Of a stretch of 64,000 nucleotides of DNA, positions 9,033-61,100 are shown piece by piece. A program made the position numbers and the translations under genes. A model generated the notes under the pieces. The model did no database searches. It was given only the letters and a program-made list of their open reading frames with translations, and had not been told where the DNA came from. This DNA is from Tetrahymena thermophila SB210 (taxonomy: Eukaryota > Ciliophora > Oligohymenophorea > Hymenostomatida > Tetrahymenidae), in assembly GCF_000189635.1 (NCBI RefSeq), contig NW_002476413.1, positions 930,001 through 994,000 on the forward strand, in the 5' to 3' direction. Numbering within the stretch: the first letter of the stretch is position 1; each line of letters starts with the position of its first letter.

Positions 9033-10290
9033 ATGGCAGCTAACTCAATTTTCTAAGAACATTGTAAATTTCATGGCAAAAGAAATTTGGAATTTGTATG
9101 TATTGAGTTGTAATGCGAAACAAAAGAAAAAAGGGGATGCAATCTTTGCTTCATGAAGAACGGGAAACATTAAGACCATTCATATTTAGAATCATCAGAG
9201 TTGATGGAAGAAATAAACAATTTTTAGGTTTAGCATGTGACTGAAAAAATAAAACAAAAAGCAAAAAGTGCAATAATAAAAATAAATTAAGAATTAGATG
9301 ATTGGTACTTAAAGGTAGTTCAGAAATGCGAAGAAATTGAGACAAAGTATGAAGAAATAGGAGATGTTGATAGTTTGATTGAAGTTTATAGGATTAAAAA
9401 AAATGAATAAATATTGCCAATTTATCAAGGCATAGATATGTATTAAGAAGATGTTCTAAAAAACATGAAAAATGCTTAAAACTACATCAATTATTTTTAT
9501 CATTCAAAGTACTTGGAGTAATTAAGCAGATATTAACAGCAAATTGATTAGCTTAAGCAATAGTTTTAGGAAATATATGATAAAAACCCTTTAAGGGAAT
9601 AGGTCAATGCTCCTTTTAATTTTGATATGGAAGAATTAGAAAATAATATAGATAGCACATTGCATCCTTAATTAGAATAAATAAAGTTATTTGATTAAAA
9701 TGGAAATCCTTATTTTAAAGTTAAGTCTATTTAATTATGCTAAAAGAAGGATAATCTTCCAAATGGGAGAATGTTCTACTTTCGCGATACAGGCGAATTG
9801 TACGAAGGATATATACTTAATAATTAAAAGCACGGAAAAGGCAAACTAGTAAATTAGTATGGACATGTTTATGTGGGTGAATTTAGATATAACAAAAAGT
9901 ATGGATTGGGAGTTTATTTATTTGGTCAATACAAGTAAATTATTTGATTAGACAAATACTTTGTTATTTCACTTTTGAATTAAATTAATTTACCACTTTT
10001 TTTATAATAAATGATAGGTATGAAGGCGAGTTTTAAGATAATAAATATCATGGCTGTGGTAAGATGATTTATCAAAATGGAGATGTTTTCGAAGGGTTTT
10101 ATAGATATGGAATGAGACATGGTAAAATTAAAATTTATTATTAAAAAAGATTTTATCTTTTATTAAAAAAAAATAAATAGGAAAGGGTAAATTTACATAT
10201 TGCTCAGGAAAAGAAAAAATAGGAGTTTGGGTAGATGATAAATATGTTAATGAAAGTACAATACCTAAGGATGAACCTAAAGAAATTTGA
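9033..10290 (+). CDS. B-box-like zinc finger, coiled-coil and MORN-repeat protein
   Basis: Three exons (9033-9934, 10018-10121, 10181-10290) with introns of 83 and 59 nt give 371 residues ending at TGA 10288-10290. Residues about 10-50 hold a Cys/His cluster (CKFHGKRN, then VCIEL.C, then CNLC, then HQDHSYL) like the B-box-type fingers found in many Tetrahymena proteins. A coiled coil follows (about 60-205). The C-terminal third has MORN repeats with the YEGxxxNxxxHGxG pattern: ELYEGYILNNQKHGKGKL, VYVGEFRYNKKYGLGVY, YEGEFQDNKYHGCGKM and FEGFYRYGMRHGKGKF. Both introns interrupt MORN units and the reading resumes exactly. MORN proteins often attach to membranes or axonemes; the exact role here is unknown. 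Confidence 0.9.
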
Positions 10291-13200
10291 AATATTCTAA
10301 GCAATTTAAGTAGAACTAAGATCAAATATATTTAAATGTAAAATAAAGATGTTGTTAATAAAAATGAAAATAAATTTTAAAGGATAAAAATTTTACTAAA
10401 GTGGGATTTTTGATTACTAATTATGAGAATACAATTAATCAAATATTGAAAAAGATACAATAAATAAATAAAGTTAGTTATTTGCTTTGGATATAATTAA
10501 ATTTAAAATATCTTGACCTTTTAAAAAAATCAAACAAGAATAAAACAAATATTAATTAAATATAAAAAAATAAATAAAAATTTTGCGAAAAGAAACAAAT
10601 AAACAAATTATATTAAAGAGGATTTCTGAAAATTAAAAGAAGAAAAATAAATTGATAAAGACAAGTAAATTAATCTTAGTTAAAATTTATAAAAATTATT
10701 TTATAGAAAATTATTAATTATTTATTGAATTTGCTTAAATATTTATATTTATAAAAGTGTTTTAGGTTTAATATTACATCATTTATAAAAAATTTTTCAG
10801 CGCTATTGTACTTTAATGGTATATCATAAAAAAGATAATTTACATATTGATATATTAATTTGAACACTACTATTCGTTAAAAAACAACTTTTTCTAAAAT
10901 CTGTTTCCAAATTAGTAAATAAAGAATATTATTTATTAATAATAAAATGAATTATGGCTTGCGATTAATAATTTTATAGTTTTGATACTCATAGAATGTA
11001 TTCAGAATCAAATTATTCACATTTTCTATTTCCTGTTGATAATTTACTTATAAAATTTTTATATTTTATTTATAAATTAAATGCACATTATTCATAATCA
11101 TAATGTAGAATTTACAACGCTATTTTAGGATAAAACCATTTTTATCAATTTTAATTTTATGAAATATGCTTCGAATTTTAACAAAAAATCATCGCTATTA
11201 CTTAATTTTATATATTTTAGGCTTTTGACATTTATAGCTGAATAAATAAATATATGTTTTGAAAAAAACTAGTTGCTTTGCTACGTGCAATTTTTAAAAG
11301 ATTAATTTATTTATAATTTTTTTTTAATAAATCTAAAATTTCTTCATGAACACATAAATAATATTTATCTTTAAAGACTACCATTTTTTAGCATTTGTAA
11401 ATACTTTATATAAAATTATAAAACCATAGCTATATTCTTAAAAAGATATTATTTGTTAAAATATATTAGAAATATACTGTATAAAAATTTGTTTAATTAT
11501 TCTTATATCTTTGAAATATAAAAAGGAAGCCATCAGATAATTACTAAAAGTTAAACATTAAAATTATCAAAACAGTATTTTTTAAGCTGAAGCATAATTT
11601 CAAAAATAATTATTGAATAGCACCTTGCTAGTAAAATATAAATAATTGTAAGAAAAACTAATCTGAGAATTAGTTAATTTTTTAAATGAATAATAAATAG
11701 TACCCTTTTAAGAAAATCATTTTTATTTTAAGTTGATTGATAATTAAACATTAAGTAAGAAAAAGAATTTCATTACAAGATTTAGTATGTTAATGTATTT
11801 TCGATTAAGCTTGTATAAAGATTATTTTCTTACTTTCCAGCTTTATTGAATCATTAAAAAAAATGTTTTTGATTCAAAATTTTGTAAATTTGTCTTTCTA
11901 AAAAAGGTTTAATATAAAGCTTGGTTCTAAAAAGTATATCATTTTACTATTTTTGACCCTTTGTGTCATTTTATTAGTATTTAAAATTTTTATTTTATGG
12001 ATAAATTTTGTAATTTAACAAAAAATGGATTCTCTTCAAGTAAGATAAAAAGTACCATACATTAAGGAGTGCTTAATTTTTCTTATCTAATAATGAATAT
12101 TCTTCCAATTGAAAGCTCAGAAAGAGTAGTCTATGATACTTATTAAAAATTTTTACTAATTTAGAATAGTGAAAGGATTACAACTTATCTTCATTGTGAT
12201 CAACGATTTTTTTTATGATTCTCACAATGAAATTATGATTACGATTTATAAATTTACAATTGACTATTTGAATAGATTTTAAAGGATTCAATGACACTTC
12301 TCTTCTAGCTTATGTGAGAATATAAAGATTATTTTTGTGATATTTTTTCATAGTACAATTTTTAGTTAATGAATAAATAAAATGAGTATTTAAAAATTTT
12401 TAACCATGTAGCTATTTTTCAGTATTATCTAATTTACAATCTGAGAAATTTAAAAGAATAGCCAGATGAAAAAAAAAATAGAGAAAAATTGAATAATTAT
12501 GTCATAAATAAAATTTTAAATTGCTTATCATTTAATTTAAATTAACTGTTGTAATATATTTAGAAGATTAGTGAATAATATAGTAAATTTCTTTTATCAT
12601 GTTTAAATTATAAATCATATGATTAATATCAGCTATTTTTTTGTAAATTGTTAGCTATAATTCTTTCATTTATTTCTAAATTAAAAAACAAAATGATTGA
12701 TGATATTTCATTTGAAACTTTGAATTTTTATTATTTACTAGAAACATAAAAGTATTTTTTTACCAAAATTAATATTTATAATTTAAAATTATTTTAATTA
12801 ACTTATTTTTGTGAGATATTTTATCTATTTTGAGTGATAATTTTATAAAGCATTTTTATAGGTTAATTTTTTATAGAACTAAAAAAGTTTTTAAATAAGT
12901 TTTTACTAAATAAGTCCAAAATCTTGGAAGAAAAAACAAGTTAAATTAAAAAGACTAAGTAAGAAAAAAAGTTAGAGGAGTCAAATTATATTTAAATAAA
13001 TCATCAACAAAGAAATGAGTAAATCAAAATAATTGAAATCGCTTAGAAATTAATTGATAATTTAATTTATAAAAATCAGTTTTTATATTTAAATATCATT
13101 ATTGTATATTTCTATAAAAATAAGTGTGCTATTCTTAAATATAATTAAATTGCTTTTTACTAACTTTTAACGAGTTGATTGACTCTTTGGATTGGCTCAC

Positions 13201-18710: not shown

Positions 18711-20089
18711 ATTCTTATAATATAAAATGAATATTTCTTTACTTCATAGTATGAAAAATACTATTTAATTCTATATTAATGATTCTAAAATATCTATTTA
18801 AATTTATTAAAAGTTATTGAATTTTTAATATGTTTGTTTAAGTAGAAATTTCAAAGCCAAAGTTTACATAATGTTTTTAAAATCATCTAAAAAACAATAA
18901 ATTTTTTTCAGAGCACTATAAATAAATGATTGATAAAAAATGATTGCTAGTAATTAATAAATTTAGGCAATTTTTTTTATCTAAAATTTTAATTACATTC
19001 AAGCATTTAAACATTTGACATTACATAAAAACTTTTTAATTTTTAATGAATCTAAAAATAGTCTAATTTAATCTTACTCTATACGAGTAAACAAGGCTTG
19101 TGATATTATCATGAAAAAATAAAAAAGAAAAGAAAGACAGTGTACAGATTTTTGAATTTGTTCAACTTTCACTTACAAAATTTAGAACATTTTCTATTTT
19201 CTATCATATGAAAATATAAAATATCAAAAATAATTTTATTTTATTATTTAAAAACATCATTTTAAAAGAAAAAAAGCTAGATTAAATAATAAATTATTTT
19301 AAATGCTAAAAATAATATGCAAAAATATTTGTTGAAATTGCTAATTTATTTTTGCTACTTAACATTTTTTTTATTTAAAAGTTAAAAGTTATTTACTAAT
19401 CACAACTAACTTCTTTCTATTCTTTCAAAGCTATGATATTATTAAATCGCTCAATTAAATTAATATTTACCTTTGAAATGAATTGAAGTTATTAAATTTT
19501 AAATATTTTTAATTTGATAAAAGAAATACTTGCTTAATTATTAGATTGTGTTGATTGATTTTGTCATACAAATTTCGTTATTACTATTTATTATGATTTA
19601 TTAAATGGTTAGTTTTCAATTAAATTCATTCATCATACTTATGCAGATAAGTATTGAAATAAATGATTATTAATAATAAATTGTTAATAATAACAAATAA
19701 TAAATTGAAGAAAAGAAAGTTAAAAATTGCATGTTTACTTGATTTATTTTGTTAAATTAAATTAATGAAATAAAGTTAATAAAAAATATATCTATTGATT
19801 AAAGATTAATTAATAAGAATTATTTTGAAAAGTTATTTGTTATTTGTGGTTAACATCATTTTTAATTCAGATTATTTATTGGTTAATTTGCAAACTTAAT
19901 CAGCTAAAATTTCTCTTTATTTTTCATTTTTGTGAGCATTTTTAAAAAGTTATAACAAAAAAACTTTTGGTTGTGTTTAATTAATTTTGCTTGGATGGAT
20001 GGATAAGCTTGATATCTTTTTTCTTAATTTACAAGTAAGTAAAATACCAAAAAAGTGACTTATATATTATTCAAAGAAAATATCACATT
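18711..20089. other. Intergenic AT-rich DNA
   Basis: No gene is seen on either strand. The sequence is AT-rich with a purine-poor stretch just before the pseudokinase start at 20090, whose promoter presumably lies here. Confidence 0.5.
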
Positions 20090-23000
20090 ATGATAGGTTA
20101 ATAGGATGTAGGCGAGGAGTATAGGAAAGTTTCTTTGAACCAAAATTTTAAGCGGAGACTATTTGCAAAATCAAATTAGCTTCAAAAGAGTCTAAATAAC
20201 TCAAGCCATTTAAATTTCTTACAAGACAGCTTACGGGATGTGCATATTATTTATGAGAATCAATACTATCTTATTAAAAGAGTTGAAAATGTTAACAAAT
20301 GTATGTATTTCACTCAAGTTGTTCCATCAGACATCAATAATTTTGATATAAGCAGCATGAATCATGAAAATATTCTTTAAATACATCAGGAAGATAACAT
20401 CTTTATTGCTGAACCCATGCTTATGACATTGCAATCTTATATTTATCAGTAATAAGATGTATCTCATGATTTAGAATAAATAATAAAGCAGATAGTTAAT
20501 TTCATTTCATTTCTTCACTCTCAAAACCTAGCCCACACTGAATTAAGCACCAGAAATTTTTTAATTAATGAAAAGTTACAAATAAAAGCTGTGCCTCTAC
20601 CCTAAGAAGGTGTTTAGTATCGTGCCCCTGAAAGAATAATAGGATATGATGTTGAAAATATGAAAAGCGAAGATATGTTTCAATTAGGATGTATTATATT
20701 AGAGTTATTAGCACGAAAGCCTGTTTTAGAGTCAGAAGATGAAACAAATCAAATGCTTAAATATTCTCTTTTCTTAGGAAGACCTTAAGAAATAATTTAC
20801 CGTAATATATATCATCAGCTGCCAGATACATCACCAGTTGATATTGATAAATATTTAAGTAATTGCGATTAAAAATTAGTAAATCTCATCCCGTAACTTC
20901 TAGTTTATGACCCTGAAAAAAGAGCTACCATTTAACAAGTATAAAATTATTTGAATTAGGTTTATCCCTCTTTTAGACCATCTTCAAAGTCAAGTATAAG
21001 CAACTCTCCTCTTTCATTAAAATCTCAAAGAATGACACCTTATTCTTTAAGAAATAGAAATAAACGTTATGGAAATATAAACAACGGTTCACCAAATTAT
21101 TACTATTAAGATGAAACCCCAAGTATAAACCTTTATGAAGACAGCCCTAATGATTTATCTCCAAAATTTAATGTCTCTAAAAAAACATTTGATGAACAAA
21201 TGAGAACCATTGCTGAGGAAACTAGCTTGAATAATGATGGTATGTCTTAGCTTAGAGAAAAAATTTAAAATGGAAAGTAAAATAATCCTTCAATAGACAA
21301 CAATTAAGGTGCTTAATAATATAATAAATCTCAACATCCAAGAAATTATTCATCTGCTTCTAATACTTAAAATAACTTAAGGCTTCAAAGCTCTCAAAAA
21401 CCATAAACACCTTAAAGATATAAATAAAATAGTTTACTCTTTGATAATGATGATAATTTAAAACCATAAATTATATAAGACAGGATGACACCTTTAAGTA
21501 ATAGGAGATCAAATAACAATTCTTTCTAAAAAAATAATAATAATAATAATACTCCTGGAAAAGGTTTCTTTATAGATGTTCCTGACAAAGAAAAAAATAT
21601 CTAAGATCATTTAACTTCTTTCTAACACCTTTAAAAAATCTTTAGTGAAGAAAATAAACATAAAACTGATGATGAAAAAAAAAGAAAATTAGAAGAAGAT
21701 TTGAGAAAGTAAGCTGATGAAGAAAAGAAGAGGAGAGACGAAGAGGAAAAAAGGAAAAAGGATTACGAAGAAAAAAAATTGAGAGATGAAGCTGAAAAGA
21801 AAAAAAGAGATGAAGAAGAAAAGAGAAAGAGAGATGAGGAAGAAAAGAAAAAGAGAGATGAAGAAGAAGAAAAGAAAAAGAGAGATGATGAAGAAAAGAA
21901 AAAGAGAGATGATGAAGAAAAGAAAAAGAGAAATGAAGATGAAAAGATAAAAAGAGATTTAGATGATAAGAAAAAAAAAGAGGATGAGGAGAAAAGGTAA
22001 AGAGATGAAGAAGAGAAAAGAAAGAAAGATGATTTACAAAAAAAGAAGGATGATGAATTAAAATAAATCTAAGATGATGAAAAGAAGAAAAAATTGGAAG
22101 AGGAGCTTAGAAAAAAGCTTGAAGAAGAGTAAAAGAAAAAAGAGTTAGAATTAAAAAGATAAATGGAAGAAGAGTAAAATAAGCGTGAGCAGGAAAGATA
22201 AAAATAATTTGAAGCTTAGAAATTGAAATAGGAATAAGAAATGAAGAAAAAAATTGAGGAAGAATAAAAAAGGATTGAAGAGTAGCTTCGAAAATAATTT
22301 GAGCAATAGTAGAAGTAGAAGGAAGATGAATTAAAAAAGAAGGAAGAAGAATAAAGGAAAAAAGATGAGGAACTGAAAAAAAAGGAAGAAGAAAAGCTGA
22401 AGTTAGAATAAGAGCTAAAGAAAAAAGAAGAGGCTCTTAAGTTAAAGGAGGAAGAAGATAGAAAGCTTAGAGAAGAGTTAGCAAAAAAAGAAAATTAATA
22501 AAAATAGGAAGAACAATAAAAATTGTTGAAAGCACAAAAAGAAGCTGAAGAGAAGCTCCGTAAATAACTTGAAGAGGAGCAAGAAAAAATAAAAAAATTG
22601 TAAGAAGAGCTTCTTAAAAAAAAGAAAGAAGATGAAGAAATCACCAAACAAAAATAATTACAAGACTAAAAGGCTAAAGAAGAAGAGATTCGATAGCTTA
22701 AAGAAAAGTAAGAATAACTAGCTGAGCAAGAGAGAAAGTAAAAAGAGATAGCAGCTGAACTTGAAAGAAAGGAAAAATTAGCATAAGAAGCATTGAAAAA
22801 TTAATAACTCTAAATTTAAGAAGAAGCCAGAAAAAAAGAAGAATAAATGTTATAAGAGCTGAAAAAAAAAGAAGAAGAGCTTTAAAAGCAAAAGGAATAG
22901 GCTGAGCTTGATAGAAAGAAAAAATAAGAGGAGTTAGAATAGTAGAGATAAAGAGAATAGGAGGAAATATAGAAAAAATAAGAGTTACTTAAATAGAAGG

Positions 23001-24604
23001 AGTAGGAATTAGAGAAATAAAAAAAAGCTGATGAAGAAAAATAACGTGAATTTGAGGAATAAAAAAAGAGAGAATTAGAAAATTAGAAAAAGAAAGAAAT
23101 GGAATTAAATTAGTTGAAGGAATAAGAACTTGCTAAGTTAAAAGAAATTGAAGAAAAAAGACAAAGAGATGAGTAAGAGAAATAAAATAAATAAAGAGAG
23201 GAAGAAAAAAGGCTTCAAGAGATTGAAAAGCAAAAGAAGAAAGAGCTATAAGATCTAATGAAGTAAAAAGAACTCGAAAGACAAAAACTAAAAGAGCTAG
23301 AAGAAAAAGAAAAGGAACTTGCTAAGAAAAAAGGAGAAGACTAAAAGAAAATCGCTGAATTAGAGAAGCAAAAAAAATATTAGTAGCAACAACAACAACA
23401 ACCAAAAGAATCTGATGAGAATATCAGACTTTAAAAAGAAGACTCTTAAAATGAATCTTCCAAAAAACCATTAAAGTAGCCTAAATCATCTAGTAAACTT
23501 ATTTAAACAGATTAGTCCCTTGATGATAAAAAAGCAAACTAAGGTAATATGAATAACAATAACAATTAAGGTAATATTGTTATCCTACCAGAATCTATGT
23601 AACGATAGTAGATGATTTCCAACATTTTATAATAAGAAATCGAGTTTAACGAAATATATAGATAAAGGTAAGGCTATTCTCACTACAGATTCAAGAACAA
23701 TTAACTTAGCACTCCAAATAGCAATATTATTGTTAATACAAGATATTCACAGTAGCCTTAGCAGAATCATAATAGCAGTAAAGTTTCTCCTTAAATGTAT
23801 GACTCAAAGTAAAGTTTCTATCCTTAAAATAATTATGATAATAATGAGACGAATCCTTCATTGAATTTTAGAACTCCTCGAATAAACACGGACCATTCGA
23901 CTATAAAATCAGCTTTAATAAATACAAATGATAGAAACAACTAAAATCCAAATTAAAAAATGGAATCTCCAGTTTCTAATATCCATAATAGAATCAAACA
24001 AAAGATTTAATTAAATGGAAATACTATTGTGGTAGAAGAAACACCTGAAAATTCAATAAATTCTTTAGGAAACCAACCTTCTTATTAGCCTGTTTATAAA
24101 GAGCAATAGCCTAGAATTATTAATAAAAATAAGCCAATTATACCTCCTTTGAGAAGTATAGCAACAAGCCTACCTCCTGCTACTGATAGAAGAAAGCAGT
24201 CCCCTCCGTTGAATGGCACTGACAGAAAAAGTAAAGAAAATAAAAAATTCAATACTCTAAATAAATCAATAGATGTTAAGAAAAAAAAGAAAAAATCAAA
24301 GGGAGGTAGCAGCGAAATAAAAGGAAATTATAATAATAATGATTATAAAATGCCCCCTCTTTCTGCTAGAAATGAGAGCTTTTAATATTTGTAAGACGAA
24401 AGAACAAAATTTAGATAATCACATGATGGGTAATTGATTACTCAATCTAATACTGATTCAATACCATCAATAATAAATCCTGCTAGAATGAGCCAATAGC
24501 ATATGTACTTATAAACAAAACCAGATTAACCTACCGTATTCAATACTAGACTACTTGCTCGCCCGCCCACGTTTTTAGTTTAAAAAGATACAGACGAAGA
24601 CTGA
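20090..24604 (+). CDS. Pseudokinase with very long charged coiled coil
   Basis: A single 4515-nt frame, 1504 residues, no intron. Residues about 40-285 have a protein kinase fold. Subdomain IX (EDMFQLGCIILELLARKP), an APE motif (YRAPERIIG, near 179) and the C-lobe ending YDPEKRAT recall the CDK/MAPK group. Catalytic motifs are lost: no glycine loop or VAIK lysine is evident, the HRD loop reads HTELSTRNF (His at about 149), and no DFG is present before a very short activation segment. Residues 290-525 are Ser/Asn-rich with many Thr-Pro and Ser-Pro sites. Residues about 527-1100 are an almost unbroken Lys/Glu/Arg coiled coil beginning with an 8-residue KKRDEEEK-type repeat. The tail is Asn/Pro-rich. 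It is probably a structural or scaffolding protein, perhaps cytoskeletal; that is inference. Confidence 0.88.
21770..21985 (+). repeat. 24-nt minisatellite encoding KKRDEEEK-type octads
   Basis: Within the coiled-coil exon a 24-nt unit (roughly AAAAAGAGAGATGAAGAAGA plus four bases) is repeated about eight times with small changes, including one unit longer by one codon. All variants stay in frame. Such arrays change copy number easily, so the coiled-coil length may be polymorphic. Confidence 0.75.
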
Positions 24605-25433: not shown

Positions 25434-26992
25434 TCATTTCGAAATAGAATCATAAAGTTGATGGAGCTATCTAATTCTATCATTAATTTTATTTAAGATA
25501 GAGTTATTTTTAGGAGAACAAATTTAGACCATATCTAATGCTTCATTCATCAGGTTAATAGCATCTGAGAAAAATCTACAATTTTCTGCAGCAAGACTCA
25601 TGTTGTAGAGAAACGAAACATTTTCAACAGTCTCTTCCATTTAATTATTTCTCTCATACATCCTTAGTACTTTTTTATAGTAAGTAAGAGCATCATCAAA
25701 TTTTCTTAGATTCAACAAGCAGTTAGCTAAATTTATCAAGGGATTTATTACTTGAGGACATTCATAATTGAAATTATTTTTCATAATATTATAGCTTTTT
25801 TGGAAATTTTGTAAGGCTGAGTTATATTTTCTGTGTTTTTAAAGGATCAACCCAATTCTCTAAAGTATTTCAACGCTCTCAATTCTATCTTCTCCTAAAA
25901 TTTATTCTTGTAGCCAAAGAGCTTCCTATAATATAAATTACAAATTTTACAATTTATATATTTTATTTAAATAGAATTACTTTATAGAACCTAAATGCCT
26001 CTATATATTATTACTATCTATCAAATAACTCTGCAAGATTGAAGTTAATTCTAGAGGCCTCCATAGAATTTGCTTTATCTTCAAATTTTATTATTGTGAA
26101 CAAACTTTTCTTCAAATAAGTTATAGCTTCTTGTGTTTTATTAAATTTCATGCAGATCAGCCCATATTATTCGTAATGTTAAGCAAGCTCTATTTAGTGA
26201 TTTTCCAATACTTTATCAGATTTTTTTTATTTTTATTTTTCTTCTTCTTCTTACTTGTTTTCCAATTCTTGCAACTTTAATCTGGACTCTTCATACTCCT
26301 AATTAAAAATATTTTAATGCAATTTAAAAAATATAAATTAATTAATTAATTAGAAATTCAATAAACAAAATTTTAATTTATCAAATAATAATAAATTTTA
26401 GTCAAATTAAATTTATTACTTAATTGTATGACTCGAATTCCTCAACAGAACTAGATTTGAATTCTATAACAATAGGTTCTTCTCCAGGTGCCTCTTATTA
26501 CTCTTTGATAATATGAAGTCTATCATCTTTATGCTTTTAGAAGAACCATTTAATTGCAAAATCAAGAGGCTATGGAGGTCTTTTAGTAATTAAATCAAAA
26601 ACTAATTCTTCAATGTAAATATCAACATGGTCTCTTAAATATTCTTTCATTTGCAGCTTTAAATTAAATTTAATTAATTTTAAAAATAATTCAATCAAAT
26701 AAATAAATACTTCTAGTTCCTATGGGCTTAAATCGGATGCTTAATGAATTTGTTAAGGGATATAATATTAATTATTTTTATAGAGCTGCAACCATTCATA
26801 GCTGAATTTAAGCTAATTTTAAATTACTGAATTTTTATATGTACAAGATTAAAAAGTAATTTTTACGAAACTATGAGGCCTTTCTTTAAGAGCATCTATA
26901 ATTAATTAGTTTAAGAACTCTTTAATTTAATCCTCTAAGTATTATTCAAGTCTTTTTTATTTGCTGGGAGATAAATTTGATTTAGGCTTCAT
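25434..26992 (-). CDS. RIIa/Dpy-30-like and TPR protein (may be the C-terminal half of the E1 gene)
   Basis: Exons 27015-26867, 26812-26711, 26656-26420, 26298-25981 and 25925-25434, with introns of 54, 54, 121 and 55 nt. From the ATG at 26992 this gives 424 residues ending at TGA 25434-25436. Two segments resemble the RIIa/Dpy-30 dimerisation fold: LEQYLEDQIKEFLNQ with ALKERPHSFLKFSYEWL, and EYLRDHVDIYIEELV with ITKRPPQPLDFAIKWFF. A Glu/Lys helix follows, then at least four TPR-like helical pairs of the kinesin-light-chain kind (EALWLQEQILGEDRIESVEI, YNSALQNFQKSYNIM, FDDALTYYKKVLRMYERN, FSDAINLMNEALDM). Such modules are typical of ciliary and microtubule-associated proteins. The first exon is preceded by a normal intron that joins it in frame to the E1 gene upstream, so it may not be a separate gene. 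Confidence 0.75.
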
Positions 26993-27015
26993 GTTTTATT
27001 CTGCTTACTCGAGAG

Positions 27016-30000
27016 CTGTTTATAAAGAATTTAAAATAATTCTAATTAGTATTATAAAAATAGCTACCTTCAGAAGCACTTTCTGATAAAAGGTCGGACT
27101 CAGTTTTTAAGGTTTCTCCTTTATAAGAATATTTTACGAAAGGCATTTTGCATTCATTTCCTTTTCTATCAGAAGCATATATTCCAAATTTCAAGTATTG
27201 CTTATATTCAGGAATCTTGTTTTCAAAGACTAATTCAAATAAATCTTAAATATCCATTTACTCACTATTTTTATTATTTCAAATATATTTATTTATCGAA
27301 TTTTTATTAATCAAAAATTAATTAATTGTTACTGTTGTTAGGCATCTTACTCATTTTGATCAAACAAAAATTTATTTTCATAATAAATTTTGTTTATAAT
27401 AACATCATAGTGTTCCAAAAAATAATCTCTAAATTCACTTACTCTCATTGGACCATTAATAATTATAAAATCCCATTTCGTAAAACCTTGTTATTTTATC
27501 AGTTTTAAATTTATTTAAAATAAAAAATATTATTTAAAAACCTTTTGGAATTGCTTTAACTGGACCTAGATATTCTAAATCATAGTCAGTATCATTGTTT
27601 TTGTAGGGCTCTACAGGATCACAAAAGACCCACAAAGGTAGAGCTAAATTCATAAAAGTATTTCTCATAGCTGTTATAGGTTTTTACTAAAAAAATACAT
27701 TAAAAAAATTTCAAGCTAATTAATAAATGTTATTTACCATAATATACTTAATTATCTCTATACCAACTGTTCCTACTATCATAGCAGTAGTAGTAGCTAA
27801 AGCAGGAATAATCTTCCCAGCAATTACTTTCACTTTCATTTTTTCAACTTCTTTAATCTATTTATTCAAATGGTTAATTTAATTTAAATTAATAAAATTA
27901 TTTTAAAAGATAAAAAATTTTGATGAATAATCAATAAATTCAATTTAAAATTTCATTTATTATTGTTTTCTCTTTTACCTTATAATTTCTAGCTCTAAGA
28001 TTAGATATTGCTGATACCATTTCAATATGATAGTTTGTTGGATCGTCTTTTTCAAACTCTACTTGTTTGAGGTCCACCAATTTTTTAGGTAATTCATCTT
28101 CAGATAATAATAAATAAAATTCAACTTTAAAAATAATATGATTTTATTTACTTTTTATTTGCTCGATCAACAAATTGCACTTTATTTCGCTTTCATCTAA
28201 GTTAACTTGTTCTGCTTAATTCTATTCTATTTCGTTTATGTTTAGCTTTTTAGGAATAAAAGTTTCAACTTTTAATTAATTAGAAATTTTAGCTATTTCT
28301 TTAGGATCTTTACATATTTAAATATTAAAAGCCTTAGCAAAAATATTTGCACAACTTTAAACCCATTCTACATGCAGCTCATCATTAGAGTCGTAAGGGA
28401 TAACTTATGGTGGTCTTTTCTATCCACTCCAGTAAGGAGATCCATACTAATCTTTAGTGTCTAATGGAAGATTAAACAGCAATTAAGCTATTTAGTTATT
28501 ATGAACTTCTTCGAAAAGCTACTTAGCAAGGTGAAGACACTCCTAATAAGTTGGATTATTATATATTTGTAATAATTTTTTAATCCATTCTAATTTATTT
28601 TAAAATTCTGAGCTCCTTTGTGGCATTAGTTCACTTTAGTTTTTTTATATGTACCTTTATAAGTTAAAGTATTTATTAAAATAAGAACTTTCTAATTTTT
28701 AATTAATTACTTTAAAGGATTTTTAACAAACTCCTAGATTTCTTTAATAGATTTAACAAAAGTGCCTTCAAAATAATCTATAGCCCATTATATGCAATGT
28801 TCTATTAAATAAGGAGAATTTTTAAGTGTGCAAATAGGAATAGACTCTTCCTCAGGATCTCTTGTGTCAGTATAGCTTTAAGTTAAGTGAGGTATTATGA
28901 CTTAGCTATTACATTTAACACCCATAGTGCCACTTTCGAACAATACCTATTTTATCAGATTTAAGTTAATAATTAAATCCATTAAATTTAAAATAATTAT
29001 TTTTATATTAAAAGGAATTTAACTCAATTTAAAAAAATAAATAGAAGTTACCTTATTATACCATACGCATTGCTTATCTATATATTGACGAGCTTTCACA
29101 TTATCCACTGCATTAACAACAAAATCTAGGTTCATCCAGAAATTATCATCAAACATCTTGTTTTTGTAAAAAAGTTACATATTATAATAATAATAGAATA
29201 GATTAATTTATATTTACATTCTCAGTTGAAGTATCTAAAACTAGCTTATGAGATTTTATGTTAAATGAGTTATTAATTTATTTTCCTTTCACTGAAGCAA
29301 CCAAAGATTTTGATTTTCCAATATCTTCCCTCTAGAATAAGAATTATCTGTTTAAGTTTGAAATTTCAATTGAATCATTGTCTGCAATATGAACAAATCC
29401 TTTCTAAAAATAATTGTATTCAATTTATGTTGGATGATTAAATAATAAAGTAGTGTTAAAATATCGGAATTTAGATGTATGAGAAGATTTATAAAATATC
29501 AATGTTTATTTTTAATTTTTTTCATATTCACTTTGAGGAAATACTTTCTAAGTTTTCAAAAAATTCAATCTCGATATTCTATTTTTAAAGTATCGGAATC
29601 GGCATATGTAAACAAAATTATAAAGAGTACATCTCTATTAAAAAAATATGTTTTACTTTATGACAAGCTATGCCCATTAATGCAAACATTTTTGTAAATT
29701 CACAACCAAGAGCACCAGCACCAACAATTAAAACTCTAATAAAAATAAATGAATATTTTGTGTAATGCTATAAATATTGTAGTTTATTTACCTTTAAGTC
29801 AAAATTTTATCAATAAAATCTCTCCCAAAAATCATAACATAGTCATCATATCTTGTATTTGTCAGAATTCTATTTACATTTGGGTTTCTTAAATGAGCTT
29901 CTGGAAGCAAATCAAAATTATGAATGTGGAGCCATTATGACAAAGGAGTAAATTTACCAGTGAACTTAACTATTTCTTGAGCAATTATACCTCCCCAAAA

Positions 30001-31440
30001 ACTGGTTAAAGGAGCTATTTAGTAGTGTGAAAAGTAACAAATTTGTCTAAGTAGATTTTAATCTAAATCACTTACAATTAAAGAATTTTATGTTTTTTTA
30101 TATAAATTATTCAAAATATCAATCTATTGTTAGACTGCACTCACTTAATCTTCGTTTTTAAATTCAGGGAGTTATTCATTATGTTTGCTTGCGTATGCAA
30201 GAACACCTTAAAGGATAGCGTGAAGTTACTCTTATTTTCCTTCCTTTCCACAATCAACAGATTAAAATCTATCATTATTTAATCCATAACCAACCCTTAA
30301 GCTCTCTTCTAAATTTCTGAATCCAAAAGGTATAGGTACTTTTACTTGTTCGACTAGTTTTATTTTTCAAAAAAATGATTTATATTTTATTGATTGATAA
30401 AAATTTAATCATGTTAGAGGAAGAAAAATTAAATTTACTTAACCCCCTTCCTGTATAGGGCATAAATTCAGTTGTATCAACTTAAATTTCTAAGCAATAC
30501 TTGCTTAGTATTTTAACTTGAGTAGGCTCTTAAATGTTCATTTCATCCATTCCTTCCACTTCCTTAAAGATAACATAATCACCATCTTCAAATCCATGAC
30601 TTTTTCTATTTTATAATAAATTTAATTGAATCTTTTGCTATTATAACTAAATAAATATTTAGATATTTTGTAAAATCTATCTATAAAGTTGTAAAAATTT
30701 TATTGTTATTCTATTAATTTTACTTTTGATTTGTTTCTAGTAAGGTAACTACAGCAGCTTTATCGTTTGTGATTGAAGAGATGATGGCTTGTTTAGGTTC
30801 CTCACCATTTGGATCTAAAATTTTGTGATCCTCACCAAAATCCACAAAGCAAAAACCATATAAACCTAGCAATCCTGCATAAATAAAACCTATATTCTTT
30901 GCTCTGCACATCTTATTCCATGCAATTAATTTTTCTCTATTATAGTAATCAGTAAACACTACAACATTAAATTCACTAAGAAGAACCTCATTGATTTCTC
31001 CATCATAGTCTAAGACGTGTACATTTGAATTGAGTTGCTTAAGATGAGGCAGACAAGCTTTAGCTCTTGTCTTTTAACTTTTGATATCATACTCTGAAAT
31101 ATAAAAGTTAGATCCCATATCTTAAATTGTGCAAATATTCTTATCGTAAATCTTTACAACATGAGGATTTGCTAGAATAATATTTTTAGCAACTTCTACA
31201 CCAACCTTTTAAGATTATAATAATTTCAGAAATAAATCTCGCATAAAATCATAATTGAATTACTCCTCTCATGCCATAAATAAATACATTTGTTTGACTT
31301 AATTTCCCCTAAAATTCTTTTCCATAGACAGCAAGCTATCTTGAAAGTAAATTTTCATCTAAACTAACCTCTTTAGGTACAGGAGGAAGCAATAATTAAA
31401 TTTATTTAGCTTCTTCTTTCTGCTTTACTTCCCCTTCCAT
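27016..31440 (-). CDS. UBA1: Ubiquitin-activating enzyme E1
   Basis: Thirteen exons can be joined with consistent phases. Introns lie at 31206-31263, 30606-30723, 30354-30438, 29736-29791, 29404-29656, 29157-29217, 28947-29051, 28655-28710, 27858-27978, 27687-27737, 27487-27541, 27265-27350 and 27016-27067. The E1 part is 1089 residues, close to the usual 1000-1060. Order of parts: inactive adenylation half (RQLAVYGKEFQGKLSQTNVF, GMRGVGVEVAKNIILAN); first catalytic half region with HGFEDGDYVIFKEVEGMDE; active adenylation site VLIVGAGALGCEFTKMFALM (about 464-483) with SNLNRQFLFQREDIGKSKS; catalytic cysteine in SIPICTLKNSP (about Cys625; human is 632); EKDDPTNYHIEMVSAISNLR; AGKIIPALATTTAMIVG; and a ubiquitin-fold domain ending NECKMPFVKYSYKG. 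It makes the ubiquitin-adenylate and E1 thioester at the head of the ubiquitin pathway. No TGA follows the ubiquitin-fold domain before the next splice donor, so the frame enters the RIIa/TPR exons; unspliced, it would stop at 26946-26948. Confidence 0.93.
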
Positions 31441-32976: not shown

Positions 32977-33209
32977 TTATTCGTTTATAAAAACTAATGC
33001 AACCAAATAAATAAATAAAATAAAAATAATTATATAAAAACTGTTTATTTAAAATAAAAGCTATCAAAAATGTTTTAACCTATATACTATTAATCACATA
33101 TTATATATAGGCGACAATTAGTCAATTTACTACTATTAAAATATCTCCTTAAATTATATATTATTTTTTATTTTTTAACTTTAATATCTACTTTTTAAAA
33201 TAGATTGAT

Positions 33210-34128
33210 TCATGCTTAATATTATAAGTAATCCAACCATAAAGCTGCTTTTATAATTAAGATTTTATCTTTAGGAGATGTGATATTATCAAATGTAATT
33301 CCAAATTTATCTTGTCTCGTGCAACACTCTCTTATACAACCATTGTACAAATTTTAAATTGTACCTGCAAATTCGTTTGAAGCATCTCGTATTTCATATT
33401 TAATTATTTTGCATCCACAACATTGAAAAGGTAAGCAGCAGACAGACTTTTGGCAGCACTTGCCTCTTTATTTAAAAATGGTATTAAAATATATTTATGG
33501 ATTAATTTTTTTTACGTAATTGTATAAGCTAATTCATCAGACTGGTTGAAAATTTGAAGTTCCATAATTGGACAACATAGTTTATTTCTAGTACCCCAGC
33601 AAGGGCCATAATAAGGTTATACTATTTTTCCAATGTAATTTTAACTAAGTGAAACTCTCATCTCTGGCTTCATACAGCAGCAGGTCAAAAAATTGCATGT
33701 CTAACATTTATAAGGAACTTCTGATGTAGCAATTTACACTCCTCCTATAGAAAGACCTCCTAAATTAATTTATTAAGTAGAATTTTTTGTATAATTCATA
33801 TTGAAAATACTTAAATTAATTATTAATTTATGAATGGCTTCAGCTTTTTCAAGATGTTTATTATACTTATCATAAATTTATATAATATACCTGAGAATGA
33901 ACGTCTTGTTATGCATGTACATCTGCAACAGAGAGAGGATTCTTCAATAAAATCACCAAGCTAACGATCTACTTACTAAAAGTATTCATCTTCACACTTC
34001 CATATAAGATATTTATTACTGTTCTCACAGCAAGTTAAAAGCATCCACTAACAAAAAAAGCACTCAGCCCAATCATCTTATTATTCTATAAGCAAATACT
34101 TCGATTATAGCAAAATACCGTAATTCAT
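33210..34128 (-). CDS. Phospholipid scramblase family protein
   Basis: Exons 34128-33891, 33759-33516 and 33465-33210, with introns of 131 and 50 nt, give 245 residues ending at TGA 33210-33212. The protein follows the scramblase pattern: a Cys-rich stretch after an acidic strand (GDFIEESSLCCRCTC), repeated beta strands, GPCWGTRNKLCCPIMELQIF, then KCCQKSVCCLPFQCCGCKII with YEIRDASNEFAGTIQNLYNG, and near the C-terminus ITFDNITSPKDKILIIKAAL, matching the F.I.FP....KA segment of the family. Family members move phospholipids between leaflets in a calcium-dependent way and are often palmitoylated on Cys clusters; here the clusters are very dense (CCRCTC, TCCC, CCQ, CC, CCGC). No typical C-terminal membrane helix is obvious (it ends WLDYLQYQA), and the protein is somewhat shorter than animal members. 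Confidence 0.82.
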
Positions 34129-35383: not shown

Positions 35384-38300
35384 ATGAAACCAGAATATAT
35401 TTAATCTCTAGATAAGTTGAGAGAAGACGTTAACTAATTCTTGAAGTAAAAATATTAAAATTGTGATTGGATCAATTAAATCCTTATTTACTTACTTTTG
35501 TATTTGTTATTAGAACTGGAGAATAAAAGTTGCATTAAAGCATCTTAGAATAACTGGGATTAGAAGGCAATGATATTAGCTACATGGTTGTAGAAAGATT
35601 GCTTGATTATCTGGATTTCATAAATGACACAAATACTTAAATATTTTTAGCTAATGGAATAAAGTAGATTGTAAAAATGAATTATAGTATTTTTAGTACT
35701 GAGGAGAAAAAGAATATCTATTAAAGGACCTTCAACATTTATAAGAAAATGCCTTAAAACTCATATTTTTTTTAAGACCTTATTATATGTATCTTCAAAT
35801 TCTTTTATGACAGCATATAAGTTGAAGTATCTTTTATTGAAGATGTTAAATCCTTCAGCGAATAGTCTGCTGAGCATCTTCAACTAGGACTATTATTATT
35901 TTCTAATATCATAAATTGCATGCAAGATTATTAAATAAAGTATAAATGTTCATCCGACTTGGCTTACATCGATTATAACTCTGATCTCTCCTAATTTCAT
36001 CGCAAAAAAGAAATATCTTTCAGATAAAATTTGCTGCCTATTATTTTTGATATCCCTTTTTAACTCTTAAATACAAAGAAAGAAGATCTCATGGTAGAAT
36101 AAGAGACTAATTTTTAAGTTTTACTTGAAGTACTGAATCTTCTCTACAACTGTCTAAACTATGATTATTTCGACTAAAAAAAAGTATCAGATGAAAAATT
36201 CATTGTTGAATCAAGTAAATATAAGTTTTTTTTCATTTATTAATTGCATTTTTAAGCCAACATCAAAGAAAGAAATATATCGAATTTCAGCTAATTAGTA
36301 TGATGATATCAAACACACAATATTAGAAAAATGTATAAAAAGAGAAAAAGTTATTGTATTACAAAAGCTTTTATTATTTTTGAGCTTAATTGAAATTTGA
36401 TATTTCTTAAAGTAGAAATTTTTAGAAAATTATGTTTTTATTTTTGAAAAATGAATAAAAAATATTTTACTTAATGAATGATATTTATTGAGGTTTAATA
36501 ACACAATTTTAAAGCATTAGATTTAATAATATTTAATAATGAATACAAGAATCAGGATATCACAATACAAAATATTTACATTTATTTAATAAATATTCTT
36601 TAAAAAATAATAATAGAAATAAATATGGTTATTTATTTCTTTATGCTTTATAATTTGATTTAATAATTTTCATATTTATTTAGGTATATTAAGCATACCT
36701 TGTAGAGAGAAAAAATAGGATAATTATATTAATGATTTGAAATCACAGGAATTTACTAGCATACTTTTTGAGTTGTATTATTTCATGGTGAATAAACATA
36801 GAGAAATATCTATTAGGTGCCTTCAGATTTTAAGTTTACTTTGTCGTCTTAGCATTAAATTTTTTAAGAAAGAAGATTAAAAATTCTCTTAAATGATATT
36901 TATCATTGATGGATTACACAAAATTTATCAGACTCACACATTTATATTTGAGGAGAGTGATGTATTTGAACAAACTTAAGATATTTTTTAAGCATTTTGT
37001 TTATGTGTTTCAAAAATACCAATAGGAATTTCTTTTTCTGATGGAGAAAAGTAAATTAATTCATCAAAAAATTACTACATTTTCATAATAATTAATTTAA
37101 TATATTTTTTTATTGTTTTAATTTAATTGATTTGAATAATTTTTTTGGTTACCCTTATCTCTTTTTTTATAAAGCTTGGTAGGCTTTTGGGAATTTGTTG
37201 TAGAAGTTAATAATATTACGAAGGTTGCAATAGATAGAAAAAATATACCTTGCTTAGAGCTACTTCTTGAATTCTGGTGTGGATACTACTATTTTTTATC
37301 ACATGATGGAGCTTAAAAGTAGGATTAGCTAAGGAGCCTGGTTGAAAAGATTTTAAAAGAATTTATAAAGTCTTAATTAGAAATATCATCTAATTTGAAA
37401 GATGACTAAGATTTTGAAGAAGCTATTGAAGAATATTCTGTTTGTATTAAATACTTTGGTTAGTTATCAAATGCATGGTACTTATATTACATGAAAATTC
37501 ATAAGTTATTTCAATTTTTTAAATTTTGTTAATTTACAGGATCGATTAAATTGAAGATATATTAATGAAAAAGATATATGCTATATTCTAAAAGAGATCC
37601 TAAACTATCAATATAAGCATACGGAATTCTAATAGATCAAACTACTAACAAAGTCTTTTTTATTAACTCTATTGGATGCTTTTACTTCTATTTAAAGCTC
37701 AGTCATATAACATAAAAGAAGAGTTACAAACAACAAATAAACACTATGAGCTCGACTCATAGGATGAGATAAAAGAAGATCTAGAAATTCTTCATTAAGC
37801 TTTCGATTCTTTTGGAAAGCTTTTCAAAATTGGTTTAAATCTCTTTAAATCGTAGGATACAGAGCCACTTCCTTATTTTTTGCAAAATCTCATCTTAGAA
37901 ATTGCTCATTTTCTTATAGATTACATATTAGCATTTAAGTCTAACATTAATTTCGATTATCTCAATATCATAATAAAATTTACCGATTCTTTAGAACTAA
38001 AAAATTACTTCTTCTTAAATAATATTATAAATTACTTTTTAGACGAGCTATGCTTCTCAGCCAATAACAAGAATTCAGAATAATTTCTTAAGATACTTAA
38101 AAGCATTTCCTCTAACCTTTAAGCTACAGATTAAGTAAATTAATTAGAATAAATAATGCAAAACCTTCTATTTTATTAATTTAAAAAAATTTAAATTTAA
38201 ATAAAATTAAAAATTTAGTTAAATAATTTTTCCTAAAAATATCAATTAAATAAAGCTTTTAAGAAATATAAACTAGAGTATATAATTATTCCTAGTTTAT

Positions 38301-41709: not shown

Positions 41710-44059
41710 TCAGAATATATTGCATTTACTATTTTAACCACAGCATCCTTTATTGTTCTAATTTACTCCAATTTCTTCTATTTCTACCATTTTTTTGTCT
41801 TCTTTAATGGTTGTTGTATTTTATTTTGCGAATACATTTTTAGATTTTTTAATTAGTTGATTGACGTCTGTGGCTGTAACAGTATGGCCTTCCTCTTCTT
41901 CTTCCTATAAAACGACAAATCCTTTTTCTACTTCCTTAAATTACTCTTCCTTCTTTCCTGGAGATGCTTATGATTACATGCTATTCTATGTATTTACAAA
42001 ATCTTATTTTGTTTCTTAAGTAGTTGCAGTTGTTGCTGTATTTGTTTATTTAATATTCTTATTAATATCTAATTAAGGTTCATCCTATTTATTAAATTAA
42101 TTCACATTGTCAAATATTATCTATTAATTTTCTACATGTTATATATTAATTTGGAAAGTTGCTGATTAATTTATCTAATCTTTGCTAGATTCTTATTTGA
42201 AATCTTCAACAAAACGCTTTGACGAGGCTTTCATTGATTAGACAAAATGAGTATTCCCAAATGACTGGCTCATCTTTTCATCTATTGCTTTGTTGCTACC
42301 TTCTCCTCTATTTTGATTATTAAGCACTTTTGGTGTACTTTCCTTGTTTAACTTGGCCTTTTATTATTCTGTTTGTTAATGATCTTAGCTATCTAATTTT
42401 AAAGGTTCTGCTGAAATCGATCCTCCGAACGAAAATGGCTTTACTTAGTTTGAATTATTGTTTTGAATAAAATTTCTATCATTTGGTTACAATGAAATTT
42501 CTTAATCCTACTTCTAAACTTCTTAAATTTATTTAGTCTCTACAATTTGGTTAGTTGCAGAAGGAGCAGCAAGAGCCACAACTGGAACTGGTGCAGGATT
42601 TAGCTTTCTTTATCTCTCTTCTTTTTATTCTTTTGTAGTGTAAATATCGATAGGTGGCCTATTTTTAAATAAATTCATTATGGATTTTAATAAATATTAA
42701 CTAAGATAAATTTAATAACTAATAAATTACCAAAACTAAGTAAGATCATCGAGTTGACCTTGGTATTTTTTTTAAAGATACCTAGGCTCAATATCGTTTT
42801 GCATTTAGCTTAGTTGCTTTTTGTCCAAAAATTTTATTTTAGAAGCAGCTTCTTCATCAATCATCTTTTCGATCACACTCCAAATATTTTTAAGACCAAA
42901 ACTAGGATTAAGGATATAAAGTCTTTCAAGACAGCCACCAAAATTAACCTGCATCGCATCAATAATAACTCCAAGAGCCTTAAGAGGTAAAGAAAAAATA
43001 CCCTTTTCTCTTGTATCAATAATAAAAATCCAATTTTCAACCTTTCCTGGCACCATCATATATTTTTTAATCATTTCTAAAAAAACACACATAGCTTGAG
43101 TAATTTAATCAGCTCCATGCTATTAAATAAACATATTATTAAAAATTAATAAAATTTAAACGCTCACTCTTTGTGTGTTCAAAAAATAATGGAAAGAAAA
43201 TTCATTTATTTAAGATTATATGGATGTACTTTGATTTATTTTTTAGTAAATATTTTCAAAATTTATCAAATCAAAATTAATGTTTAGTTTATTTATCAGT
43301 CAGCATTTGTTATAATTAAATGATTACTGTTTTAAGATTTAAGTTCTAGCAATCCATATAGATAACAGGTCTCAATTGCTTGTCTCTACCGCAAAGATAA
43401 ACATTTCCTGACATCAAGAAGTTTGTAGAAAACTAGTCAAGAGTGTGCCATTTAGGATTATTGATCCATTCTACATGCTATGTTAGTGCCTAATAATTAT
43501 GCAATATGAACTAGTTAATTAATCATCGAGTTAAACGAAAATTTTACCTTAAGAGATTTTTTCATATTATATTTACCGGCTTGCAACATTTTAAGATAGC
43601 TACTTTCTTTAAACCTATTTTATTATATAATATTTTATATTTTAAACGCTAATCTTCAATTTATTTGGCAAAATAAATAAATAAGCAAGCATACCCTTCA
43701 GGGATTTAGACATTATTTTATCTCACAAATTCTTTGAATTCTACTAAGCATTTCTTTTCAAATTCATCGTATTCTACATTTTCAAATATTTTTCTACGAA
43801 TTTTCTTGTTTTCTCCATGTTTTATGTAGTAATCTAAATTATTTTAAATAAAATATATATTTAAATGAGGCTAATTCGTATTTTTAATTTGTAATAAAGA
43901 GTGTTAAAAGTATCAGCATGAATGAACTTCAAAAGCATTTTGAATTAAGCTAAGCTAATTTAATTTCGAGAAATCATAAAAATTACCTGAATGCTGTATA
44001 TTATTTACTTCTGGAGGCGGGATGAGAAACCATGGATCAAAATTTAAGACAGGGTCCAT
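41710..44059 (-). CDS. Sec14-like CRAL-TRIO protein with C-terminal CaaX box
   Basis: Exons 44059-43987, 43833-43695, 43614-43548, 43489-43328, 43119-42731 and 42658-41710, with introns of 153, 80, 58, 208 and 72 nt, give 592 residues. Residues 1-90 contain the CRAL-TRIO N-terminal helices (FKESSYLKMLQAGKYNMKKS). Residues about 100-280 are the lipid pocket: RDKQLRPVIYMDCQNLNL, VENWIFIIDTREKG, NFGGCLERLYILNPSFGLKN and RYLQKKYQGQLDDLTQFWPP. These match Sec14-type phosphatidylinositol transfer proteins. The second half is disordered and rich in Gln, Asn, Lys and Ser. The protein ends GCCGQNSKCNIF, where CNIF fits a CaaX prenylation box with upstream cysteines for acylation, so membrane attachment is likely (inference). 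The start ATG at 44059 opens a well-conserved first exon. Confidence 0.9.
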
Positions 44060-58102: not shown

Positions 58103-61100
58103 TCATAGCTTGATTGTTGTCTTTTTCTGAAGTCCTACTGTTTCTTCCTTTTTCTTTTAAGCTTCTAAATCATCTTCGCCATCTTCTCCAGGCACTTTTT
58201 CTTTAGATTTGATGCCATCCTCTTCGTCTTCTTTATCCATTTATGCAATAAGCTTTTAACGTCTTTCAAGTTCTTTTAGCTTTTTATTTCTCTCATCAAT
58301 TCTTTTCTTTCTTGTTTCTTAGAGCTCTTTGGTGATTTTGAGTAGTTCTGGGTCATAAGTTTTAATTTGCTATTTATAAAAGAAATTTAATTTTAAATTA
58401 AAAAATTAAAATTAATTAATTTACTTGATCCCATTCTTCATAGAGCACTTTATCTACATCCATAACAGGTTCAGGTTCCTATTATTCTATTTCTACTTCT
58501 TCAGCTTAATCCTAGACTTAGACTTCTGGATTGACATCTTTCTTTTCATTTGCCAATCTCTTTTCTCTTTCAGCTAAGTCTTTATCATGAATAATCTTCC
58601 AGTTAAACAATGATAAAAGACATATCAAGAAAGCACCTACAGCAAGGACAATCCAAGCAATAGTTGTATTTTCAGTAGCAGTTACTATTAATGCACTTAA
58701 ATGGAACTAATTTATAAACTTTAATTTAAAAAAGAGTGTTTGATTAAAATAAATATTTACCCAGCCACATAAGAAATAGCCTCCCATATCCAAAGGATTA
58801 ACCTTTTTGAGTAAACAAGGTTTCATTTTATTAGTTAAAAATGCAAACAATAAAAGCAGGATTGTTGAGAAAGCAAAGTAATAAACTTGAACATCGGGAT
58901 GTGCAAGGAAAGCAGTACCACCAGCAAGTAAGAATTTCACTTGAGTTGAAATAACCAAATAAGTTGGGTCATATCTTAAATCTAAAGATCTATTCTAGTA
59001 TTAAACGTTTGGCCACAAGAAACTAGCCATAGGATAGAAAATGAATATACCCAAAACGCCAAGTCCAATCAGTGTAATTTATTTTTATTCCAAGCAAATG
59101 AAGTCTGGTTGTTGATATAAATATTTAGGAACCTATTAGTTAAGGAAAATAATAAAATATCTGTAAATATGATAATATTTTTTTACCACAGAGTAATCAC
59201 AAGACATGCCATCTAAAAGAATCTTGAAAATCCAGAACATCATCGCTATACCTGCCATGCTCAAGAATTAAATTTACCAGAAATCAGCACTACAATAAAG
59301 CTTTTTGTTCTTTTATTCACACTTTATTTATTTATTTAGATTATTTATAAATTGAAAACTTTATAATATGAATTTTACTGATCCAAATCTTAGTGTTCTA
59401 ATTCTCTGAACTGATTTATACAAGAAAATGAAGAAGGCAATAGAAAGGCCAAGGCCCACACCAAACTTAATTGAGAAATTCTTATTATTTTTAAAAATAA
59501 AATGTTAAAAATTTAAACTTAAACAAAAACAATTAAACATTTTTAATTTTATTTTAAATAAAAATAAAATAATCAATCACATTTTAAAAAATTATCAAAG
59601 AGAAAAAAATATTTTGAGTGATTAAGAAGAAAATATGAAGTAAATATTGCTCTAATTCAATTAATTTATTAGAAATTGATTAAACAGTTATTCAATAATT
59701 TATTTTTTATACAGCTATTGAATAATTTTTTTTATTTAAAAGATTACGGTATTGGGTATTTCGGTGTCCATGGAGTTGAGAACTTGGTAAACTATGGTGC
59801 TGAATCCCCATTAGGTAACTGCAGGTCTGAAAGCAATAAATGCCATTCCGATATACTCAAGAATCTTGAAGAATATAGCAAACCTGTTTGTAAAGTTGCT
59901 TCTTAACTCAACAAGACCAATTTCTTTGTCTTTGAGTCTTGCAAATTATTTTTCTTAATGTTAAATTTCATCAACCATAATGTCAACAATTTCAGGCCAC
60001 TCTGGAGATTCTTCATGAATGTATCCTTGTCCATTTTTCTTTTTCTTTGCACCAAATTATTAGGGAGCCAAGAGATCATTGTTGATCAAATTCACTTCTA
60101 AGTCTATTTCATCTTTTCCGTTACTCTTGATATCTTTATCTAGGAGACATAAACTTTTACAGAAATAGCTTGTGTTTTCCATAAGAGATTTCATGTATTT
60201 GTTAAATCTTTCAATACATCTCTAGCACTTTGTTTTTCTATTCTTCATTCTGGCATCAATATCAGGTAATATGATATCGTCGGTTTCGTCTTTAGGCATC
60301 AATCCTAATTCCTGAATTGATTAAAAGAATTATTATAACTCATGAAAAAAAGTATTTATTTATTTACCTTCTTAAGTCTGTAGTAAAATCCTTCATCTTC
60401 TTCGATAAGTTCCTTATATAAATCGTCCAATCCGTAAAGTTTAAGTAAAAACAAGACATAATCCCATTCATGTCTGTAAAGACCACGAATAGGTGGAAGG
60501 TTCCATAGCAAGTAAGGATAAAGCCAATTTTTACATAATTTACCAAGAGCTTCATCTACGTCTAGTTCAAAAGGATATTTCCTTTTTGCAACTTCCTTTA
60601 AAATTTTAGGGAATTCAAAATATGAAATAGGTTTTTTATTAGGTTTTCCATCTACAGAAGTAAATTTATTGTAAATGATATCAATTTCATGATCTTGAAT
60701 CTCGTCACATGGAATTACACCACCTTTAATTAGTAGTTCTTTAAACATAACATAGTCTTTCCATTTAAGCCCATCAAATTTGGTTGAGGAGCCTTAAGCA
60801 AACACGTAAAACACATTTCTCAAGAAAGCATCAGTCCAGGGTTTGCTTATTTCTAATTGCTGACCAAGATCATATCTTCTCAAAGGTTCAATAATCTTTT
60901 CATGAATAGGTCTGAATTTCTTATCAATGATATATTTTTTAAGCCATGGATCCTATTTTAAATATAAATGTAAGATTAGATTTAAGTTGAATTAATTATT
61001 ATTCATCAAATTTAAATACAATTTAATGTAAAAATATTTAAAAATCTATATTTATTTTTTGAATGAACAAATGAATAAATGATAAAATTACCTCTTCTAT

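Follow-up and report, generated by a model that had tools for sequence, protein, structure and literature searches.

Does the minus strand of this Tetrahymena thermophila locus encode a single protein in which a ubiquitin-activating enzyme (E1) runs on into RIIa/Dpy-30-like and TPR modules, or do two genes lie here side by side? The locus sits in a stretch of 64 kb, which we refer to as the window. The window reads as ciliate genome with TAA and TAG specifying glutamine, and under the ciliate code, in which TGA is the sole stop, positions 31440-25434 of the minus strand can be read as one gene of 19 exons encoding 1504 residues (Table 1). Judging from the sequence, we consider it very probable that the locus is one fused E1-RIIa-TPR gene. 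The fusion, as proposed in a preliminary description of this DNA, is well supported: reading frame, base composition and splice sites all agree with it, and neither a stop nor a spacer separates the two parts. What is new here is the arrangement of the domains; the enzyme family is a known one.

The final model comprises 18 introns and 4515 bases with 61 TAA codons, 16 TAG codons and one TGA, the terminal stop, so that the spliced frame is open throughout. All 18 introns carry GT..AG borders, range from 51 to 253 nt and have G+C contents of 7 to 26%; frame, homology and base composition guided their selection by hand. Retention of four introns (29051-28947, 28151-28098, 26866-26813 and 26710-26657) would keep the frame and introduce no stop, and their removal therefore rests on composition and homology. 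An initial model with 17 introns yielded 1522 residues, close to the 1521 given previously; the better model also removes 26866-26813, an in-frame stretch of 54 nt that is probably a further intron, and so arrives at 1504 residues, with an estimated mass near 175 kDa.

Table 1. Features of the E1-RIIa-TPR locus (positions within the window)
Feature	Position	Strand	Remarks
E1 part	27112..31440	-	residues 1 to about 1054, predicted catalytic Cys623
E1 exons (first seven)	31440-31264, 31205-30724, 30599-30439, 30353-29792, 29735-29657, 29403-29218, 29156-29052	-	
E1 exons (last seven)	28946-28655, 28589-28152, 28097-27979, 27857-27738, 27686-27542, 27486-27333, 27264-27068	-	E1 up to about 27112
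Linker, coding, E1 frame, stop-free, after ubiquitin fold	27068..27111	-	
Junction intron, 52-nt GT..AG, E1 frame to tail frame	27016..27067	-	
Tail exon 1	26867..27015	-	linker and start of RIIa-like repeat 1; contains ATG 26992 and out-of-phase TGA 26948-26946
Probable in-frame 54-nt intron	26813..26866	-	repeat 1 complete once removed
Tail exon 2	26711..26812	-	rest of RIIa-like repeat 1 and spacer
Probable in-frame 54-nt intron, 7% G+C	26657..26710	-	
Tail exon 3	26420..26656	-	RIIa/Dpy-30-like repeat 2 (residues about 1157-1200) and spacer
Tail exon 4	25981..26298	-	helix-prone charged segment and first TPRs
Tail exon 5	25434..25925	-	more TPRs and gene stop TGA

Several other features were recorded in the window. 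Convergent with the E1 gene lies an open frame of 1538 residues on the plus strand (19988-24601) with a Pfam Pkinase match (E=4.4e-14) and a very long charged region, which is probably coiled-coil. A MORN repeat is found at 10013-10321 (plus strand, E=3.3e-8), a CRAL-TRIO lipid-binding domain at 42730-43119 (minus strand, E=6.6e-24) and a borderline p25-alpha match at 60365-60952 (minus strand, 22.3 bits, cut-off 22.6). The Herpes_UL7 match at 35482-36210 (plus strand, 21.1 bits against 25) is under the Pfam cut-off and most likely due to chance. A cysteine-rich coding stretch at 33209-33760 (minus strand), for which Pfam gave nothing at E up to 0.001, is reminiscent of phospholipid scramblases.

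The E1 half is complete. Its residues 23-1054 give an end-to-end alignment to human UBA1 (E=5e-201, 674 bits), and all five E1 Pfam families (ThiF, E1_FCCH, E1_4HB, UBA_E1_SCCH and E1_UFD) exceed their cut-offs, marking both adenylation halves, the FCCH domain, the four-helix bundle, the SCCH domain and the ubiquitin-fold domain. UBA6 proper reaches 548 bits, a UBA6 chain whose name includes UBA1 parts 572 bits and UBA7 458 bits; these lower scores place the protein closer to UBA1 than to UBA6 or UBA7. Cys623 in the SCCH domain aligns with human Cys632, which we take to be the catalytic residue, and the E1 enzyme is therefore probably active. The Tetrahymena protein thus has the whole E1 architecture and the catalytic cysteine in common with human UBA1 and yeast Uba1, and it differs from them at the C-terminus. 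That E1s normally stop right after the ubiquitin-fold domain, as stated in the preliminary description, is borne out by 11 UBA1-type chains (>1000 or about 1000 residues), which end 1 to 4 residues past the last aligned one; the extra 450 or so residues of the present protein are therefore unusual.

Two E1-like genes have been described on an eliminated minichromosome of T. thermophila (PMC5091840), and extra E1 copies therefore occur in this organism. Scans with narrow word patterns confirmed no relatives of the whole E1, the E1 core or the tail in viral contigs, and none of the E1 core or the last TPR exon in bacterial and archaeal genomes. Since these collections are not intended for ciliates and the patterns are narrow, the missing relatives are no evidence of absence.

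Behind the junction intron, the tail of about 450 residues combines two kinds of module. Its TPRs, which had been predicted beforehand, are secure: the TPR_12 profile matches with E=2e-18 (66.8 bits against a cut-off of 30.1) and kinesin light chain 1 with E=5.7e-14. The TPR array is what the tail and kinesin light chain have in common, and beyond it the Pfam scan revealed no other part of kinesin light chain in the Tetrahymena protein. Upstream of the TPRs, removal of 26866-26813 reveals what appear to be two tandem RIIa/Dpy-30-like repeats (residues about 1090-1205). Aligned to each other in spliced form, the repeats score 77, whereas shuffled sequences score 22.8 (s.d. 4.5) and 0 of 2000 reach 77. 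Without the splice the score is 55, which again none of 2000 shuffles reach; the likeness of the repeats is therefore independent of the splice, which lengthens the match.

The earlier assignment of this region to the RIIa/Dpy-30 family holds in part. The two repeats are clearly alike, though the matches to domain libraries are sub-threshold or weak. Pfam RIIa reaches 16.6 bits against a cut-off of 22.4 (E=0.006) in one of the six pieces scanned and is absent when the full-length protein is scanned with E up to 0.1. A search of the PDB with the repeat pair returned six entries at E up to 10, with FAP385 first (E=0.015), an RIIa-domain protein third (E=0.18) and four unrelated. AlphaFold single-sequence models of two contiguous window translations, one of which (P0001) reads through both probable 54-nt introns, are of low confidence (mean pLDDT 60 and 47). 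We regard an RIIa/Dpy-30 identity of the repeats as probable.

RIIa and Dpy-30 domains are X-type four-helix bundles that grip amphipathic helices. Two such units in one chain might pair with each other, and given that an intrachain bundle is possible, dimerisation of the E1 by its tail is not required. Together with the TPRs, the repeats probably make the tail a docking module. The strongest competing view accepts the fused gene and sees in the tail a general TPR-adaptor scaffold without any link to anchoring helices or cilia. TPRs are widespread, the RIIa scores fall under the Pfam cut-off and repeat 1 alone retrieves no RIIa protein from the PDB (its top match is myrosinase, E=0.003), all of which agree with a general scaffold. 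Against it, two of the six PDB entries for the pair are of RIIa/Dpy-30 type, the top one originating from a radial spoke, and a FAP385 fragment resembles both repeats beyond shuffles (1 of 2000 and 0 of 2000 reach its scores). We consider the general scaffold a possible but rather unlikely explanation of the tail.

Whether E1 and tail belong to one gene is decided at the junction. According to the preliminary description, the ubiquitin-fold domain ends in the exon 27264-27068 with no TGA behind it, a 52-nt intron leads in phase into the tail frame, and an ATG at 26992 and a first unspliced E1-frame TGA at 26948-26946 are available to a second reading. All of these elements are confirmed on the minus strand, with the intron (GTAGCT...AAACAG, 15% G+C) running from 27067 to 27016. 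We scored the surrounding sequence with a codon model trained on the exons and the non-coding DNA of the locus, with the joint excluded from training. Read in the E1 frame, the 44 nt that follow the ubiquitin fold up to the donor gain +5.8 nats as coding sequence, a value reached by 0 of 1785 non-coding 14-codon stretches, and the 24 nt between the acceptor and ATG 26992 gain +3.3 nats in the tail frame, which 0.9% of 2100 non-coding stretches reach; these fractions serve as a guide, given that the compared stretches overlap and that the same DNA trained the model. Base composition agrees: the two segments have 39% and 38% G+C, respectively, and none of the 44-nt windows taken from introns (0 of 586) or flanks (0 of 1603) reaches 38%. 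Intergenic and intron DNA of T. thermophila is 85-90% A+T (PMC3274533).

Competing layouts were compared over 27111-26867. The fusion layout obtains 19.7 nats, followed by an E1 frame that extends to the ATG and then switches to the tail (16.1), a non-coding spacer (10.6) and an E1 frame that extends to the TGA (10.5). The fusion leads the frame-switch layout by only 3.6 nats, a modest margin, and this runner-up lacks any stop for the E1. The splice sites were scored with a leave-one-out model built on the other 17 introns. Here, the junction donor ranks among the best 5% of GTs and the acceptor among the best 8% of AGs on the same strand between 33000 and 24000, and by summed score the proposed intron comes third of the 63 GT-AG introns of 40-259 nt that are possible downstream of the ubiquitin fold. 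It is also the sole one of the 18 introns with a GTAG donor and the sole one with a CAG acceptor. From donor 27067, acceptors 26813 (14.5) and 26896 (12.39) score higher than the proposed 27016 (12.35). Use of 26896 would preserve the tail frame at the loss of part of repeat 1, whereas use of 26813, a 255-nt intron, would end the E1 five residues further on. These higher-scoring acceptors leave room for alternative splicing, yet they leave the coding signal at 27015-26867 unexplained.

One gene could thus give rise to two products, with most transcripts retaining the intron or using acceptor 26813 to yield a plain E1 and some being spliced into the tailed form. Retention of the 52-nt intron brings a stop 40 codons past the donor, the short E1 form has the top summed splice score, and intron retention is the commonest type of alternative splicing reported for T. 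thermophila (832 of 1474 events; PMC3274533). However, a premature stop upon retention is an ordinary outcome in this gene, as it results for 14 of its 18 introns, and retained transcripts might be destroyed. The linker, moreover, is coding-like up to the donor either way. We hold such a mostly untailed enzyme to be improbable.

Still less likely, and in our estimate very improbable, are two separate genes, with the E1 ending unspliced at TGA 26948-26946 and an independent RIIa-TPR gene starting at ATG 26992. Both codons exist, and E1s of known structure do end at the ubiquitin fold. The arrangement requires, however, two coding regions of one strand that share 47 bases and read them in different frames, and the E1 frame beyond the donor looks non-coding (-6.4 nats over 39 codons), whereas the tail frame is positive from the acceptor onward. 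Unlike both flanks of the gene, the region between the two parts contains no A+T-rich spacer. An assembly or reading-frame error was rejected on the grounds of a frame that is open across all 18 introns without base changes, and a false join of neighbours over a long gap on the grounds of a gap of 52 nt.

RNA-seq has uncovered annotation errors in T. thermophila that include fused and split gene models (PMC3274533), and genuine fusions have been reported as well. The Gene deFuser study lists 80 candidate fusions in this organism, 52 of which the authors accept as real (PMC3143110). Among 25 annotation artefacts, 24 had an intron of >413 bp between the domains, compared to a median intron of 86 bp (PMC3143110), which also speaks against two genes at the present locus. 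The authors used intron length to call artefacts, and the argument from intron length is thus partly circular; a junction of 52 nt is still the opposite of the artefact pattern. Known T. thermophila fusions such as RSK1-4, which join a kinase to a radial-spoke-like part, unite an enzyme and a structural module in one gene, as seen here, and the word ubiquitin is absent from the main text of that report (PMC3143110). An E1 joined to RIIa or TPR modules did not occur among the matches listed from the open-licence literature.

For the fused protein, we propose the following mode of action. The E1 half would adenylate ubiquitin, load it onto Cys623 and transfer it to E2s bound at the ubiquitin-fold domain, in the manner of other UBA1 enzymes. 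The ubiquitin fold would be followed by a short linker, the tandem RIIa/Dpy-30-like helical repeats and the TPR array, with the tail serving as an address tag. The repeats may form a four-helix bundle, either intrachain or between chains, that could grip an amphipathic helix supplied by an anchoring protein, and the TPRs may bind a second partner. Ubiquitin activation would thereby be tied to a single structure; in a ciliate, the cilium or the cortex would be a plausible site. Taken as a whole, one gene whose E1 is docked by its tail at one structure is the explanation that we moderately favour.

A ciliary site is a tentative assignment, suggested by the weak likeness to FAP385 (E=0.015) and the known uses of RIIa modules. 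In Tetrahymena, adenylate kinase 8A carries a FAP385-like N-terminus and has been placed in spokes containing Rsp3B, and Rsp3 proteins bear a helix that binds Dpy-30 domains (PMC12399478). Ak8A and the E1 tail would thus have an RIIa/Dpy-30-like unit in common, which in Ak8A resides on a spoke enzyme; it is one unit as described there, whereas the E1 carries two in tandem at its C-terminus. The main text of this report uses the word ubiquitin three times, in passages on IQUB and in a cited title, and therefore names no E1 (PMC12399478). More speculative still, and rather doubtful in our view, is the idea that ciliates own an anchored E1, in which the ubiquitin-fold domain is wired to a tandem RIIa bundle on an anchoring helix (e.g. 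that of an RSP3-like spoke protein) and provides local activation at cilia or cortex. In this design, activation might be splice-switched, and the 52-nt junction intron would be the switch.

E1 catalyses the shared entry step of the ubiquitin pathway, and the enzyme is generally regarded as unlocalised. In Chlamydomonas, the flagellar proteome lists an E1, four E2s and three E3s, and ubiquitin conjugation occurs in isolated flagella and is higher in shortening flagella (PMC4588046). If our reading of the locus is true, a docking tail on the same chain would enable the cell to fix its supply of activated ubiquitin at one structure, and the tailed E1 would make local activation testable by removal of the tail alone.
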